Part shown: positions 8,023 to 48,118 of the stretch, in pieces
Numbering within the stretch: the stretch's first letter is position 1
How the letters are laid out: every line of letters starts with the position of its first letter
Source of the DNA: a virus
DNA: 57,881 nucleotides
Virus record (IMG/VR): IMGVR_UViG_3300012002_000216
Location: 1-57,881 of that record
Direction: 5' to 3' (one strand)
The notes under the pieces: model-generated
Seen by the model: the letters and a program-made list of their open reading frames with translations, nothing else
What the model was told of the DNA's origin: nothing
The model's database searches: none
Program-made: the position numbers and the translations under genes

Positions 8023-8697
8023 TTGGCAGCAAAAGAAAAATCAGAACTCGAGCAAATGAGTGATAGGGCCCTTGTTACGCTTATTAAGACAAGCGAAAAC
8101 AAAGAAGAGGAACGAAATGCACGTCATGTCTTGTACCATCGCTATGAACGTTTTGTTCATAAGCACTGGCATTCACTTAACGGGAGACTTAATCGTTCTC
8201 CTATCGCACTAGAACTTAAAAACGATTTCTATGCTGAATCGTATATTGTTTTTGAGAAAGCTCTCAAAGCAACCAAGCTTAGCAAAATTCGAGATGACAA
8301 GTGGAAGTTTCTTGGCTATTATGGATTCTATCTTTCGACGTTGAAGAATAACTTCGTAAAGAGAGCGGTGCAAAAATATCATAACGAAACATCCATCGAA
8401 GCACCTGTAGAGTCGGCGTCACGACCTGTATTACTATCAGATATGGCAGAAGCTGGCGTCATTCCATCGGCTGAAGATCAGGTTATTCAAAAAGATCAAC
8501 AGCGTCGGTTTTGGAAGGCATTAACGCAATGTCAGTCTACTGTATGGGATGGTACGAGGCGTACTATATGGGAACGTCGAGCTGCAGGTGTATCTATCAA
8601 GGATACATGCGAGGAACTAGGAATATCTGCTTGGCGATTCAATAAGATCCTATCTGAGATGAAAGAGCAGCTTAACTCAGCTATCGCTAGGGCCTAG
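8023..8697 (+). CDS. Sigma-70-like (ECF-size) transcription factor
   Basis: 224 residues, start TTG chosen because GGAGG is 8 nt upstream. N-terminal helices (RHVLYHRYERFVHKHW, then DFYAESYIVFEKAL, then GYYGFYLSTLKNNF) match the order of sigma region 2. The C-terminus has a helix-turn-helix in the region 4 position (WERRAAGVSIKDTCEELGIS, then AWRFNKILSEMK). This two-domain layout is that of small alternative sigma factors. Driven by a strong host-like promoter, so it is probably made early and could switch host RNA polymerase to phage promoters (inference). Its TAG-ended 3' end overlaps the convergent HNH-like gene by 21 nt. Confidence 0.6.
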   Translation: MAAKEKSELEQMSDRALVTLIKTSENKEEERNARHVLYHRYERFVHKHWHSLNGRLNRSPIALELKNDFYAESYIVFEKALKATKLSKIRDDKWKFLGYYGFYLSTLKNNFVKRAVQKYHNETSIEAPVESASRPVLLSDMAEAGVIPSAEDQVIQKDQQRRFWKALTQCQSTVWDGTRRTIWERRAAGVSIKDTCEELGISAWRFNKILSEMKEQLNSAIARA

Positions 8698-12555: not shown

Positions 12556-14649
12556 ATGGGATTCGCATTTGGTGGCTTGAGTGTTCAAGCTTCAAAAAAG
12601 ACACTTCAAGCAGACTTGATAGATGAGCCGTTGCTTATCGAACATACGACGGATAGCTCTAAGCATCCATACTTTCTAATCTTGCTTGATGAATACTACT
12701 CTCCCCAGAAGCTCAAGAAAATAGAGAAACTTCTTAAATTGAATGGTATTGCAAACTACCGTGCAGTTGTCTCTGTCAATGTCAATATCAAAAAAGATGA
12801 TCTAAAGGACGGAATCGGTCAGCATTATCGAACGAATCAATCGCGATGGAAGCAGTATGTAGAAGGAGCGAAAGCAGTGATCGCGGTGGGTCCAGCCTTG
12901 TACTCGATCAACCAATCGACCGACATACTAGTGGATCATTTTCGTGATATTGTCTTTAACAAATCGTACTATTGGTCGCCAGATACGGGAACCTACGTGT
13001 TTCCGGTTGATAGCTTTAACGATATTTTTGTGCCATTAGCACAAAAGAATACAGGAATGTTCCAGCCATCGCAACCTGCTCCAGTTACTGACGCCCCAGC
13101 GAATACATATCGTACGCATTTCACGGAGTATCAATTGGGGTTGGCACAGAAGCTTCAGCTTACTAAGCAGCGTAAAATTGAGCCTGAGCTTGTCAAGATT
13201 GAAACCACTGAAGACTTCCTGATTGTTTGTAGAAATCATCATGGGGCAGAGAAGATGGCTTGGGACTTAGAGACTAGTGGCTTCGATTTTATGACCGATC
13301 GCATTGGCTGTATTACGATGTCCTTTGATGGTAGAACAGGGTATTATGTTCCTTGGGAAATTGTAGATAGAGCGGCATTGAACGATTTATTGGCATCAGT
13401 GGGAACGCAAATTGGAGCGAACCTAAAGTTTGATGTTCGCTTTCTGTGGCGTAACGGAATACCAGCAGCGCATATTGATACCGATACAGTTCAGCTTGGC
13501 CATGTGCTGAATGAGCAACGATCCAACAGTCTAAAAGCACATGCATTCTTCTATACGCAATATGGTGGGTATGACAGAGACCTAGATCGTTACATCGAAA
13601 AAACTGGTATCGATGACTATACAGCGATCCCTGAGCATATAATGATTCATTATGCAGCGATGGATGCGGTAGTCACATGGCTGGTGCATGAAGCATTACA
13701 GCGTCAACTAGATTGGGTGGATACGCAATATCCGAACGAGAAGATGCTAGATTGGACTATGCGTCGGTATTATGAAGAAGTGATGATGCCAGCGGTAAAT
13801 ACGTTTGCTGAAATTGAGTATCGTGGGGTATATACCGATAAAGAGCATCTTGCAAATTCACGTGAGTATATCCAATCTGAAATCAGTCGTATTGAAAATG
13901 AATTGCGCGCCCTTTGGGGTGTGGATGATTCGTTCGATTTTAACTCTACTAAGCGTTTGGGTGAACTATTTGAGCAACTGGGTTGGGAGGATCTGGGGCG
14001 ATCCAAGACAGATGTATACCAGACCTCTGACGCGCATCTCTCTAAGTGGGCAAAGATGGGCCATGAGGGTGTAGCTGAGTTTCAGCGACTACGATCCCTT
14101 AAAACAATTCTTGGAACATTCATTTCAGCTACTGAAGATTCAAAGAAGGGGTGGGCTCAATATCTACGAGAGCATGAAGAAGATGAATCGCACAGGATGC
14201 ATCCAACCTTCAATGTGATGAGAACTGAGTCGGGAAGATGTAGGTGTTCGAACCCGAATATGCAAAATGTCCCGTCTCATGGAGAGTTTGCAAAGCTTGT
14301 GAAGTCATGTATTACGACTCCTGATCCGTCTGACTACTACCTCTCAACTGTTGACTATGCATCGCTACAGATTCGGCTTGCAGCTATTGATACTAATCTG
14401 AATGAAGACGGTCGCGATCAAGCGTTATATAACGTCTATACAGACCCTAAGATGGGCGGAGACATGCATAGTCGAACAGCGTATGGGGTATTTGCTCATG
14501 GTCGGGACTTCAGCTTAGATGTGGTAGAAGTGGAAGACAGCAAAACTGGGAAACAGCACACATTCTATGCAGACGAGTGGATACAGACAGAGCGAGGCAG
14601 TATTCAAGCCAAAGCTCTAATGGAAGATGACGTACTACTAATTGAATGA
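12556..14649 (+). CDS. polA: Family A DNA polymerase, N-terminal part only
   Basis: 697 residues. Residues about 1-180 resemble the UDG-fold leader of some phage polymerases. The 3'-5' exonuclease motifs are intact: DLET near 237, NLKFD near 289 and YAAMD near 365. The polymerase domain begins near 400 and reaches motif A (DYASLQIRLA near 600) and the DMHSRTA segment near 637. It then stops after 55 more residues, before motif B (KxxNFGxxYG) and motif C (HDE), neither of which occurs elsewhere in the window. The final 30 residues are a small beta-type segment ending DDVLLIE. Either the rest is a separate gene outside the window or the polymerase is inactive. SD GGAGG before the ATG. An ACTAATTG element covers codons near the end. 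Confidence 0.85.
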   Translation: MGFAFGGLSVQASKKTLQADLIDEPLLIEHTTDSSKHPYFLILLDEYYSPQKLKKIEKLLKLNGIANYRAVVSVNVNIKKDDLKDGIGQHYRTNQSRWKQYVEGAKAVIAVGPALYSINQSTDILVDHFRDIVFNKSYYWSPDTGTYVFPVDSFNDIFVPLAQKNTGMFQPSQPAPVTDAPANTYRTHFTEYQLGLAQKLQLTKQRKIEPELVKIETTEDFLIVCRNHHGAEKMAWDLETSGFDFMTDRIGCITMSFDGRTGYYVPWEIVDRAALNDLLASVGTQIGANLKFDVRFLWRNGIPAAHIDTDTVQLGHVLNEQRSNSLKAHAFFYTQYGGYDRDLDRYIEKTGIDDYTAIPEHIMIHYAAMDAVVTWLVHEALQRQLDWVDTQYPNEKMLDWTMRRYYEEVMMPAVNTFAEIEYRGVYTDKEHLANSREYIQSEISRIENELRALWGVDDSFDFNSTKRLGELFEQLGWEDLGRSKTDVYQTSDAHLSKWAKMGHEGVAEFQRLRSLKTILGTFISATEDSKKGWAQYLREHEEDESHRMHPTFNVMRTESGRCRCSNPNMQNVPSHGEFAKLVKSCITTPDPSDYYLSTVDYASLQIRLAAIDTNLNEDGRDQALYNVYTDPKMGGDMHSRTAYGVFAHGRDFSLDVVEVEDSKTGKQHTFYADEWIQTERGSIQAKALMEDDVLLIE
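14637..14644 (+). promoter_or_regulatory. ACTAATTG element in the polymerase 3' end
   Basis: Copy of the recurrent element 20 nt before the receiver-domain gene at 14665; it encodes part of the last residues of the polymerase. Confidence 0.55.
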
Positions 14650-14664
14650 GGTATAAATTGTATA

Positions 14665-15060
14665 ATGGAAGAAAAACAAGTTCTACTTGTAGATGACTCC
14701 ATCTCTCTTCATACGATGATTGAGATGTTTCTACGACAAAATGACAATCCTCATTACCAGCTATTCTCTGTTGTATCTGCACATGAGATGTTCTCGTACC
14801 TAGATCAACAAGCGATTAGTATAGTCTTGCTCGATATCGGATTATCAGACGGAAATGGGCTGCTATTGACCAAAACGATCAAGCAAACACATCCAGAGAT
14901 TGCGGTTGTTATTATAACGGCGAAGCTGGGAGATGAGCACGCGCAAGCGGCGCTTGAAGCTGGAGCCACAGACTTTCTTTCGAAGCCGTTTGATGGACAG
15001 AGTCTGCTTCAATGCCTTAATAGAATATCCTCATCACATAATACACCATCGAGGATATAA
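14665..15060 (+). CDS. CheY-like single-domain response regulator
   Basis: 131 residues, the length of a lone receiver domain. Key residues are all present: acidic pair D10-D11, phospho-acceptor D57 in VLLDIGLSDGNG, T85 in VIITA and K107 in LSKPF. No output domain. It overlaps the diguanylate cyclase by one base (TAATG), so the two are coupled and probably work together: phosphorylation by a host kinase could control the cyclase (inference). No histidine kinase is in the window. Such genes are rarely seen in phages. Confidence 0.9.
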   Translation: MEEKQVLLVDDSISLHTMIEMFLRQNDNPHYQLFSVVSAHEMFSYLDQQAISIVLLDIGLSDGNGLLLTKTIKQTHPEIAVVIITAKLGDEHAQAALEAGATDFLSKPFDGQSLLQCLNRISSSHNTPSRI

Positions 15061-16232
15061 TGGGTGTGTCATCCTTACATGAGTCCTCTTCGATAAAACT
15101 AGAACAACATCTGTTTTTAGTTGGCGCACTGTTTTACCCATTGTGGAGTCTTTTTCTAGCGATAGCAGTACCTACAGCGTATGATATAGCTAGCGGTAGA
15201 ATCGCAGTGGGGGTTTTTGGTCTTTGTTTATTACTATTAACCTATCGATTTGAGTGGGCACACCAAAGAACAGCTCTACTCAAATATCTATATGTATACG
15301 TAGGTACTGCGCAATTTGCTTCGCTCATCTATTTATCAAATGGATCAACAATCTACGCAATAGGAAACATTATTTTTAGCGCTGCGGTTTCAATGCTCTT
15401 CACGAAACCTCGCCCGTATGCTATATTTACTACGTATTGGATCCTCTTAAACATACTTGCAATCAGCCATACACCGATGTCACCTGATCATGTAGCGATG
15501 GTGTTTGGTGGTATACTTACGACACACTTTGTTATAGGCTATCTGCTTTATTCTAGAACAAAAGCCTTAATGCAGGTGGTAGAGCAACAAACTCGTGCAG
15601 ATGCACTACAGCGACAGATTTTAACACAAGAGTTGGAAAAGGCGAAAGAGTCCGCCGAAATGCTACGCAAAAGAGCCTATTACGATTTTCTGACTGGTCT
15701 AGCGAATCGCGCGATGTTTAGGGATACACTAAATCGTCAATTCGCAGCTGCTAGACGTACAGGATCTACCCTTGGCATTTTATTTATTGATCTAGATGGT
15801 TTCAAAGCTATAAACGATTCTCGAGGTCACGATGTTGGTGATTCATTATTGAAAGAGTTCGCCGTGCGTCTTGATCGATCATTAAGACAAGAAGATCTAG
15901 CAGCCCGAATTGGCGGTGATGAGTTTGCAGCGATACTATCAGAAATAAGTGACCCTCAGGATCCTGAGGTTATATGTAATCGCATTCTTGAAGAGGTGAG
16001 TACTCCGATCAAAGTTGGTGTGTATGAGTGTAAGATTGGAGCGAGCATTGGTCTTGCAATAACTCCACGTGCAGGTCAAGACCCAACAGAACAAATTCAT
16101 GATCCAGTAGATCTCATAAAGCAGGCTGATATCGCAATGTATGTTGCAAAGGAATCTGGAAAAAATGGATGGGTAAGCTACTCAGAAGAGCTAGCTTACT
16201 TGAATGCAAAGTCTTTCAGAAAGACTATCTAA
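15060..16232 (+). CDS. Membrane-anchored diguanylate cyclase (GGDEF)
   Basis: 390 residues. The N-terminal about 170 residues hold five to six hydrophobic segments, then a short coiled-coil signalling helix (about 178-205), then a complete GGDEF domain: DFLTGLANR, IDLDGFKAINDSRGHDVGD and the active-site GGDEF at 285-289. The inhibitory I-site RxxD (276-279) is kept with the usual 5-residue spacing. It should make cyclic di-GMP from two GTP at the inner membrane, with product feedback. No EAL domain. Raising host c-di-GMP would favour sessile, biofilm growth; the benefit to the phage is inference. Convergent overlap with the next gene at its stop. Confidence 0.92.
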   Translation: MGVSSLHESSSIKLEQHLFLVGALFYPLWSLFLAIAVPTAYDIASGRIAVGVFGLCLLLLTYRFEWAHQRTALLKYLYVYVGTAQFASLIYLSNGSTIYAIGNIIFSAAVSMLFTKPRPYAIFTTYWILLNILAISHTPMSPDHVAMVFGGILTTHFVIGYLLYSRTKALMQVVEQQTRADALQRQILTQELEKAKESAEMLRKRAYYDFLTGLANRAMFRDTLNRQFAAARRTGSTLGILFIDLDGFKAINDSRGHDVGDSLLKEFAVRLDRSLRQEDLAARIGGDEFAAILSEISDPQDPEVICNRILEEVSTPIKVGVYECKIGASIGLAITPRAGQDPTEQIHDPVDLIKQADIAMYVAKESGKNGWVSYSEELAYLNAKSFRKTI

Positions 16233-16711
16233 GCCTGAACATCGTTCAACGTCGGCGATCCATATAATCCATTCATACTTTGATCATCGATAGTCTGGCT
16301 AAGGAATACGAGAAGCTGGGACGCCTCATCTGTCATAGTAGCTATTGAGGTGTTCACATCCCCTAACAACTTACGCATTTGAGTTTGAATGAGTTCTTTT
16401 TGATCTTCCATTTCAGAGATAAGAGTACCTAGTTCAGACAGCTGGTTAGAATCTACACTCATATCTTTATTCGAGTATGCAGGAGTTGGGGAGGCTACTC
16501 CTGGAAACGTTGAAACTGCCATAGCTGGCGCTTGGTCCGAATATTTTGCCACTATATCAGCATATTTTGATTTAGCTTGTGTCAGGTCAGTAACTACTGA
16601 TTTGTATTGCTTGAGGAATTGAGAGAGGGACTCAAGTGCTTGTACTGATTCAGTATACTTGGAATCAATCTCTCCTCCAAGCTGTTGCACGATTTGTTGC
16701 GCACGATCCAT
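16229..16711 (-). CDS. Coiled-coil hypothetical protein
   Basis: 160 residues from the ATG at 16711, chosen because GGAGGG lies upstream; it follows the 16714-17271 gene by 2 nt. Largely helical with predicted coiled coils at about 15-55 and 100-140 around a Pro/Ala linker. No motif recognised. TAG stop. Confidence 0.6.
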   Translation of the reverse strand: MDRAQQIVQQLGGEIDSKYTESVQALESLSQFLKQYKSVVTDLTQAKSKYADIVAKYSDQAPAMAVSTFPGVASPTPAYSNKDMSVDSNQLSELGTLISEMEDQKELIQTQMRKLLGDVNTSIATMTDEASQLLVFLSQTIDDQSMNGLYGSPTLNDVQA

Positions 16712-16713
16712 GA

Positions 16714-17271
16714 TTATCCCTCCTTCCAATAAAGGCGTGTACCAGCAGGGTACACCTTACCTTCTATCATAGTAGGACGCTCTAATTCAACCTCATTATT
16801 TTCATCCTCATCCGTATTGAAAGCAGCTGATGGTTCCATCATCGAGCGAACTCCTGTATGCTGAGGAAAATCACCATCAGTAGACCCTTGAGGCGCTAAG
16901 GACGATGTAGTGCGGGTATGCTGTGGAAACTCCCCTGCATCCTGCTCTAAGTCTGTATGATGAACATCGCTAAATGAGTGTGTAGTTTCGGGGTCCTTAT
17001 TAGAGTATGTTTTACCAAGCTTATTAGCTAATTGAGATTTTGGATTTCCGAATCCACCATGCCGCGCAACTGGATCTGTAAACATATAGTAATCTGTGTA
17101 TACAACCGGATCGGGATGATCCGTATGATCCTGTGTAGTTGGATCAGCTTGAGTAAACTCATCAGTTTCTTCATCTTCTGGTTGGTTGATGAACTCGCGC
17201 GGATCTCTATTATTCGGTGGCATGAACTCTATGTCTTTGAAAAAACTCAAGAGATCTTTATCTTGTATCAT
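16714..17271 (-). CDS. Low-complexity acidic hypothetical protein
   Basis: 185 residues, rich in Asp, Thr, His and Pro, probably disordered, with an imperfect internal repeat (GEFPQHTRTTSS and GDFPQHTGVRSM). The last 25 residues may form a small beta motif (MIEGKVYPAGTRLYWKEG). Function unknown. Preceded by an ACTAATTA element inside a long inverted repeat. Confidence 0.6.
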   Translation of the reverse strand: MIQDKDLLSFFKDIEFMPPNNRDPREFINQPEDEETDEFTQADPTTQDHTDHPDPVVYTDYYMFTDPVARHGGFGNPKSQLANKLGKTYSNKDPETTHSFSDVHHTDLEQDAGEFPQHTRTTSSLAPQGSTDGDFPQHTGVRSMMEPSAAFNTDEDENNEVELERPTMIEGKVYPAGTRLYWKEG

Positions 17272-47528: not shown

Positions 47529-47531
47529 AGT

Positions 47532-47604
47532 GCTCCTATAGCTCAGAGGTCAGAGCAGGGTACTCTAAATACTCTGGTCCTGGGTTCGAATCCCAGTAGG
47601 GGCA
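47532..47604 (+). tRNA. tRNA with anticodon CUA (amber-reading, suppressor type)
   Basis: Complete 73-nt cloverleaf. Acceptor GCTCCTA/TAGGGGC (one G-U), D arm GCTC/GAGC, anticodon stem GGGTA/TACTC with loop CTCTAAA, 5-nt variable loop, T arm CTGGG-TTCGAAT-CCCAG, discriminator A. Loop positions 34-36 read CTA, which pairs with UAG. No CCA is encoded. The amino acid cannot be told from the sequence. Confidence 0.88.
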
Positions 47605-47610
47605 GCAGAC

Positions 47611-47728
47611 AGCATTGTGGCGAAACGGTAAACGCTACAGAGCCAGAAACCGTTAAAATCGGCGAGTGGGCGGAGATGGAAAGTTGTTGGGGTGTTCCAT
47701 CATGCAGGTTCGAATCCTGCCAATGCTA
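47611..47728 (+). ncRNA. tRNA-like element, atypical middle
   Basis: Acceptor AGCATTG (47611-47617) pairs perfectly with CAATGCT (47721-47727); a normal T arm GCAGG-TTCGAAT-CCTGC precedes it and a D-like arm GCG...CGC follows the 5' strand. Between them are 67 nt instead of about 22, including a 7-bp stem GATGGAA/TTCCATC next to the T arm. No standard anticodon arm could be placed. Could be a tRNA with a giant variable arm or small intron, or a tRNA-like domain of a larger RNA. Confidence 0.5.
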
Positions 47729-47729
47729 G

Positions 47730-48118
47730 TGAGTCAACTGACAGCTACATGACTCAGGGGAACGATGCGTACTGCAGCAATGCGATCGTTTGCGACCGAA
47801 AAACCCTAGCTGGATCGGGTCACCGGAGGAACAGGTGATCGTCTGCTCATACGATAGTTGAGATACACAAGTAGGGAGAATAGCCCTACTACCGAGTCAC
47901 CGGGGAATCAGGTGGAATGGATGCGGCATTGCGAGGTTAGACAACGGAGGCTATTGCGCTCCCGAAGGGTCTGCCGAAACACCTCGCACATAGCTCTGAG
48001 GCGAGAGGCACACGCGGTAAGCGAAGTGAAGGCCGAGACAGTACCATGTAGCAATAGCGAAGGGTATAAGGCGCTACACTGACTTCACTCTTCGTAGGTT
48101 CGAATCCTACCAGTGCTA
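47730..48118 (+). ncRNA. Structured non-coding RNA ending in a T arm
   Basis: About 390 nt without a credible gene. Strong stems: TGAGTCA/TGACTCA (47730/47750), AACGAT/ATCGTT (47761/47785), GGTCACC/GGTGATC (47818/47834), AGTAGGG/CCCTACT (47870/47884), CACC/GGTG (47898/47911), TGCGAGGT/ACCTCGCA (47930/47981), AGTGAAG/CTTCACT (48025/48083), TGTAGC/GCTACA (48048/48073). It ends with a tRNA-type T arm GTAGG-TTCGAAT-CCTAC and CAGTGCTA, which can pair with AGCATTG at 47611 or GGCATTG at 47924. No match to tmRNA or RNase P cores. Possibly of the large ornate phage RNA type (GOLLD/ROOL-like); unproven. Confidence 0.6.

Follow-up and report, generated by a model that had tools for sequence, protein, structure and literature searches.

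Organization of the receiver and cyclase genes

The window, by which we mean the whole stretch of DNA analysed, consists of one complete IMG/VR virus record of 57,881 bases, which is linear and therefore probably a genome fragment. It encodes a tail tube protein, a baseplate wedge protein and a tail protein with an S74 chaperone, as well as a primase, an exonuclease, SbcCD, a sigma-like protein and GroEL, and the phage is a tailed phage with a contractile tail. No close reference phage was found in searches for the window, and the GC content is uniform across it. Downstream of a DNA polymerase gene are two adjacent genes for a predicted stand-alone receiver and a predicted membrane diguanylate cyclase, followed by convergent phage genes (Table 1).

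Table 1. Features at the receiver-cyclase locus, with coordinates given as positions in the window.
Feature	Position	Strand	Basis or remark
Upstream gene, N-terminal part of a family A DNA polymerase	12556..14649	+	Exonuclease and profile positions 2-197 of 381
ACTAATT(G), promoter-like element	14637..14643	+	28 nt before the receiver start, within the final codons of the preceding polymerase ORF
Stand-alone CheY-like receiver, 131 aa, without output domain	14665..15060	+	PF00072, key residues, orthologue in the related phage (L315) by synteny
GAGG, ribosome-binding site of the cyclase gene	15051..15054	+	Within the last codons of the receiver gene, 5 nt before the cyclase start; read from the sequence
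Membrane diguanylate cyclase (predicted), 390 aa, with about six N-terminal membrane helices, a signalling helix and a C-terminal GGDEF domain	15060..16232	+	PF00990, motifs, model
Convergent phage gene, its stop overlapping the cyclase stop; right edge of the extra gene	16229..16729	-	Homologue in L315, 40% identity
Second convergent phage gene, carrying a ACTAATTA element of its own at -34	16714..17271	-	Homologue in L315, 35% identity

The receiver domain, which fills the entire first protein, matches the Pfam family Response_reg (PF00072) at 8e-23, far over the curated cut-off. The acidic pair (D10 and D11), the phosphoacceptor aspartate (D57), the Thr/Ser residue (T85) and the lysine (K107) of single-domain response regulators are all present, in agreement with a preliminary description of this DNA that had recognized a complete CheY-like receiver. 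The best match among solved structures is a REC-REC-GGDEF protein, and the REC-GGDEF chains 6zxb, 6zxc and 6zxm were also listed. The codon usage of the gene falls at the low end of the phage genes, within their range. CheY-like single-domain response regulators are phosphorylated by histidine kinases, and since no histidine kinase (HATPase) was identified in the window, which is a fragment, a host kinase would be needed for phosphorylation of the receiver. Nor was a PilZ effector identified in this fragment. Most of the receiver matches in the phage collection (Listeria, Salmonella and Acinetobacter "phage" records) were set aside as bacterial-looking sequences. The cREC receivers of jumbo phages are encoded by genes that are linked to genes for NAD/ADP-ribose enzymes and are never found in kinase systems (PMC7824862). 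In contrast, the window receiver adjoins the polymerase, the cyclase and two phage genes without known function, with NUDIX genes located about 30 kb away, and it was ruled out as a cREC on this gene linkage.

GGDEF diguanylate cyclases produce c-di-GMP from GTP as dimers, and an inhibitory RxxD site is common, although not universal, among them. The second protein matches the Pfam GGDEF family (PF00990) at 5e-45, far over the curated cut-off. It contains DLDGFKAINDSRGHDVGD at residue 244, which agrees with the motif D-x-D-x-FK-x-I-N-D-x-x-G-H, and RQED-LAARI-GGDEF at residue 276, where the RxxD site precedes the GGDEF motif by the canonical five residues. The GG(D/E)EF active loop is present, with the metal-binding aspartate and the guanine motifs. 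With these two sequences, both the active site and the I-site are intact; the cyclase looks catalytically intact, and enzymatic activity is predicted. The N-terminal 170 residues are membrane-like, with four strong hydropathy peaks, and the AlphaFold model has six helices, the last of which continues into a signalling helix. The model has low confidence in the membrane part, whereas pLDDT values mostly exceed 90 in the GGDEF domain. Motifs, hydropathy and model thus bear out the earlier assignment as a multi-span GGDEF protein with intact active site and I-site. Among solved chains, 5m3c was the closest match (2e-32), over the GGDEF domain only, and the putative sensor region (residues 1-186) had no Pfam match above noise, including to the MASE, MHYT and 7TMR families.

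The start codon of the cyclase gene overlaps the stop codon of the receiver gene by one nucleotide (TAATG), with the two genes in different reading frames. This layout, with ORF coordinates that are exact for both proteins, upholds the translational coupling originally proposed. The cyclase gene has a good ribosome-binding site, but that of the receiver gene, GAGG located 13 nt from the start, is poor, unlike that of the receiver gene in the related phage described below.

A related phage with the receiver and without the cyclase

A relative of the window phage was identified in a 73,815-base record from another metagenome (G118, of which L315 is a part). It was found only by an alignment scan with other phage receivers; single-sequence scans with the polymerase or the receiver recovered no relatives, and a last polymerase scan recovered no third member of the lineage. 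Most of the window is collinear with G118, at protein identities of about 27 to 70%. At the same place as in the window, L315 encodes a receiver of 131 aa (L315:4980-5375) that is 32% identical to the window receiver and has retained all five residues, i.e., the acidic pair, the phosphoacceptor, the threonine and the lysine. This gene is directly followed by the convergent gene, the stop of which overlaps the stop of the receiver gene. The window cyclase fills exactly this gap, with the 1 nt overlap to its left and a stop-to-stop overlap to its right, and no GGDEF domain was identified anywhere in the 73.8-kb record.

The two loci are thus similar in genome order, in the truncated polymerase and in the orthologous receiver, and they differ in that the relative has neither a cyclase in its record nor an ACTAATT element ahead of its receiver gene. 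As judged from synteny, the receiver is a conserved gene of the lineage, and the cyclase represents a one-gene difference, which in this comparison of two genomes would have been either gained in the window phage or lost in the relative. The cyclase looks like an add-on to the receiver locus. Since the relative keeps the receiver without a cyclase, the receiver cannot exist solely to control the cyclase, and the portrayal of the two genes as one signalling unit was overstated. A search for the pair in related phages, as the preliminary description had advised, recovered the receiver in L315 and no cyclase in its record. This weakens a simple reading of the genes as a dedicated pair and fits a lineage in which the receiver came first and an output enzyme was added later. 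The relative provides a natural control that separates the role of the receiver from the addition of the cyclase, and it makes the role of a phage receiver testable.

The collinearity also bears on whether the region is an assembly chimera with bacterial DNA, the condition under which the proposal was to be abandoned. Nothing beyond the bacterial-type domains themselves points to a chimera, while the receiver and its two flanks have collinear counterparts in a phage record of a separate metagenome, the stops overlap, the phage element is found on both sides and the GC content is uniform. We regard a chimera as extremely improbable, and it is excluded as far as sequence allows. The locus is taken to be phage DNA because of the collinear relative and the phage-wide ACTAATT element, and by these genomic signs the receiver and the cyclase are real phage genes.

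The family A polymerase lacks its second half in both phages (the profile ends at position 197 of 381), with the missing half identified in neither the window nor G118. The two truncated polymerases are 60% identical, including an unusual conserved tail of roughly 45 aa (RGxIQAxxLxxxDVL; window 12556-14649 and L315:2895-4967), and the split polymerase is conserved in both phages. Insertion of a cassette into the polymerase gene was ruled out, as the polymerase of the relative is equally truncated without a cyclase.

A promoter-like element ahead of the receiver gene

It had been suggested that the pair has its own sequence element and may be made late. The 8-mer ACTAATTG at positions 14637-14644 is only mildly enriched by itself (6 seen, 3.0 expected). 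The 7-mer ACTAATT, in contrast, is strongly enriched: 18 of its 22 copies in the window are located at most 60 nt upstream of a start on the same strand, as compared to 2.8% of positions (p ~1e-24), and a given slot of 21 positions would contain a copy by chance with a probability of about 0.002. It is the commonest upstream 7-mer both in the window (17 of 56 genes) and in G118 (21 of 66 genes). In the form ACTAATT(A/G), it is common to the whole window and to G118, and the conserved partner hexamer (-35) is absent, as in single-element late promoters. The sigma-like gene at 8023-8697 could encode the reader of the element.

ACTAATT is located ahead of the tail tube, baseplate, fibre and other genes of the virion block, and mostly ahead of virion genes in both phages, with the -28 spacing of the receiver gene also found at virion genes. 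It was not found ahead of the primase, polymerase, exonuclease, SbcD or SbcC genes in the window. Because the element precedes virion genes and not replication genes, late expression of the receiver-cyclase pair is likely, and both suggestions are supported, the first for the 7-mer. With this element, likely late genes could be recognized easily in a phage group that is so far uncharted.

Origin of the cyclase gene and its phage precedents

The GGDEF domain of the window cyclase shares no more than 47% identity with any of the bacterial sequences sampled and is placed on a long branch without supported neighbors in the GGDEF tree. Given this identity and branch length, the gene has not been copied recently from any host gene in the sample. 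The relatives align mostly to the linker and the GGDEF domain, and a search of 12 genomes, performed without a positive control, identified no bacterial source of the six-span sensor. These data are relevant to the idea that the cyclase is a neutral passenger, captured from a host, with little or no expression and without benefit to the phage. Its presence in one of the two known members of the lineage and the poor ribosome site of the first gene would agree with this. Yet the gene is free of frameshifts, has the full set of motifs and a codon usage equal to the phage median, and even its closest known relatives are distant from it over the domain, so that we consider a passenger unlikely.

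Phage genes that make c-di-GMP had been described as very unusual. Phage GGDEF genes are indeed uncommon, but precedents exist. Among the matches examined in 50,697 phage records there was one clear genuine phage case, gp350 of Bacillus phage G. Like the window cyclase, with which it shares 39.5% identity over residues 206-372, gp350 has an intact GGDEF domain and hydrophobic, apparently membrane-anchoring N-terminal segments, but it is a protein of 254 aa with about two membrane helices rather than six. The phage G genome has no match to the receiver family. An alignment scan of IMG/VR for GGDEF genes recovered matches in large records, in addition to phage G itself. These include a PAS-GGDEF gene in a 543-kb record (L284; the PAS label was read from the sequence), a GGDEF gene in a 293-kb record with a terminase (L302) and a protein of 377 aa in a 350-kb jumbo-phage record with terminase genes (L285). 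The latter resembles the window cyclase in having a multi-span N-terminus and a GGDEF domain (45% identity over the GGDEF part), but the N-terminal membrane parts are not alignable, and no receiver was identified in its record. In a 221-kb record, the GGDEF gene overlaps the end of a DNA polymerase gene (L293:7617-10504), which is a second case of a cyclase beside a phage polymerase.

No GGDEF domain was found in 45 GroEL-bearing and 45 DUF6267-bearing phage contigs, and the phages searched contained no further receiver-cyclase bicistron. Most of the first-pass IMG/VR matches to GGDEF (L002-L030) were rejected, with flanks that look like prophage or host DNA. The match in Microcystis phage MaAM05 (L116, MW495066.1) was also set aside; the gene is surrounded by queG, pgi, hemW and sufS, and the region looks like cellular DNA. 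In a search of the literature, viral cyclase genes were named only in passing (PMC11295528). The accompanying statement that most known phage effects lower or bind c-di-GMP does not stand as worded, as the phage proteins Eht1 and Eht2 raise c-di-GMP signalling (PMC11898732).

Proposed role of the receiver and the cyclase

We propose, with a confidence slightly on the favorable side, that a phage cyclase made late in infection raises the c-di-GMP level of the host and is encoded in an operon with a receiver of the lineage that acts in trans. According to this model, the lineage carries its own stand-alone receiver behind the polymerase gene, and the window phage has a complete membrane cyclase gene right behind it, the two forming a short operon under a late-type promoter element. 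Late in infection, the cyclase would reside in the host inner membrane and convert GTP to c-di-GMP, with product feedback through its I-site, and the still intact host would be shifted from motility to surface or exopolysaccharide programmes. A histidine kinase of the host would phosphorylate the receiver, which would act in trans, either on the cyclase or on the signalling of the host. A sessile state of infected cells and a block to superinfection, as suggested in the preliminary description, would be conjectural outcomes. If active, the cyclase would allow a phage to make the main motile-or-sessile signal itself rather than acting on the enzymes of the host, and a two-component input would be possible.

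Perhaps the receiver gates the cyclase. In PleD, WspR and DgcR, the REC and GGDEF domains are fused in one soluble protein. The window phage likewise combines a receiver with a diguanylate cyclase that has an I-site, but it has the two domains in separate ORFs and the cyclase in the membrane. A working analogy is provided by EpsW/EpsZ of Myxococcus xanthus, in which a single-domain regulator activates a membrane enzyme by promoting its dimer, although EpsZ is a chromosomal phosphoglycosyl transferase and not a cyclase (PMC12802240). By analogy, the receiver may directly control the cyclase dimer, or its action on host kinases may be older and independent of the cyclase; the original function may also be a different one, as the relative has a receiver without a cyclase. 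A stronger version is a virus-encoded relay, in which the receiver taps a host kinase and switches the cyclase, so that the phage would decide late on c-di-GMP from a cue sensed by the host, with the receiver present first and the enzyme added later. This version we consider doubtful.

The two genes may also be unrelated neighbors, such that the receiver works alone on the histidine kinases of the host, as a decoy, phosphate sink or adaptor, and the cyclase, captured separately, has only the transcript in common with it. The solitary receiver at the same locus in the relative is consistent with this, and among some 80 bacterial relatives of the cyclase that were sampled, none was adjacent to a stand-alone receiver. 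Similarly, the 543-kb jumbo-phage record with L284 (G105) encodes three stand-alone CheY-like receivers (L310, L313 and L314) that are not adjacent to its GGDEF protein; interference with chemotaxis is possible for these receivers. The TAATG coupling, the single common promoter element that is missing at the receiver gene of the relative and the resemblance of the receiver to the REC domains of REC-GGDEF proteins speak against such independence, which we hold to be quite possible, if short of probable.

A role in counter-defence was also considered, in which a flood of cyclic dinucleotide competes with or mimics defence signals, or alters GTP pools, and host behavior is not the target. Enzymes with a predicted action on defence nucleotides are numerous in jumbo phages (PMC7824862), and a conflict over nucleotide signals is therefore a plausible setting. 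But the phage tools in that study are phosphodiesterases, the I-site predicts a self-limiting output of the signalling type, and no defence-related neighbor was found in the window. These features make a counter-defence role decidedly unlikely, and we retain the effect on host c-di-GMP signalling as the preferred interpretation.

Other features of the two genomes

In G118, a putative intein interrupts the SbcC gene after GSGK (58393-61987; L331 and L332). Several scattered genes that by eye resemble homing endonucleases of the GIY-YIG type are present in G118 and missing in the window. At 47611-48110 in the window, a tRNA-like gene with an unusual length of 118 nt precedes a GC-rich stretch of about 380 bases, which ends in a tRNA 3' half (GGTTCGAATCCTACCA); this tRNA is possibly intron-bearing or broken. 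Next to it, at 47531-47606, is an amber-reading tRNA gene with a CUA anticodon, called tRNA-Pyl by ARAGORN, in a phage with TAG as the stop codon in 15 of the 56 listed ORFs.
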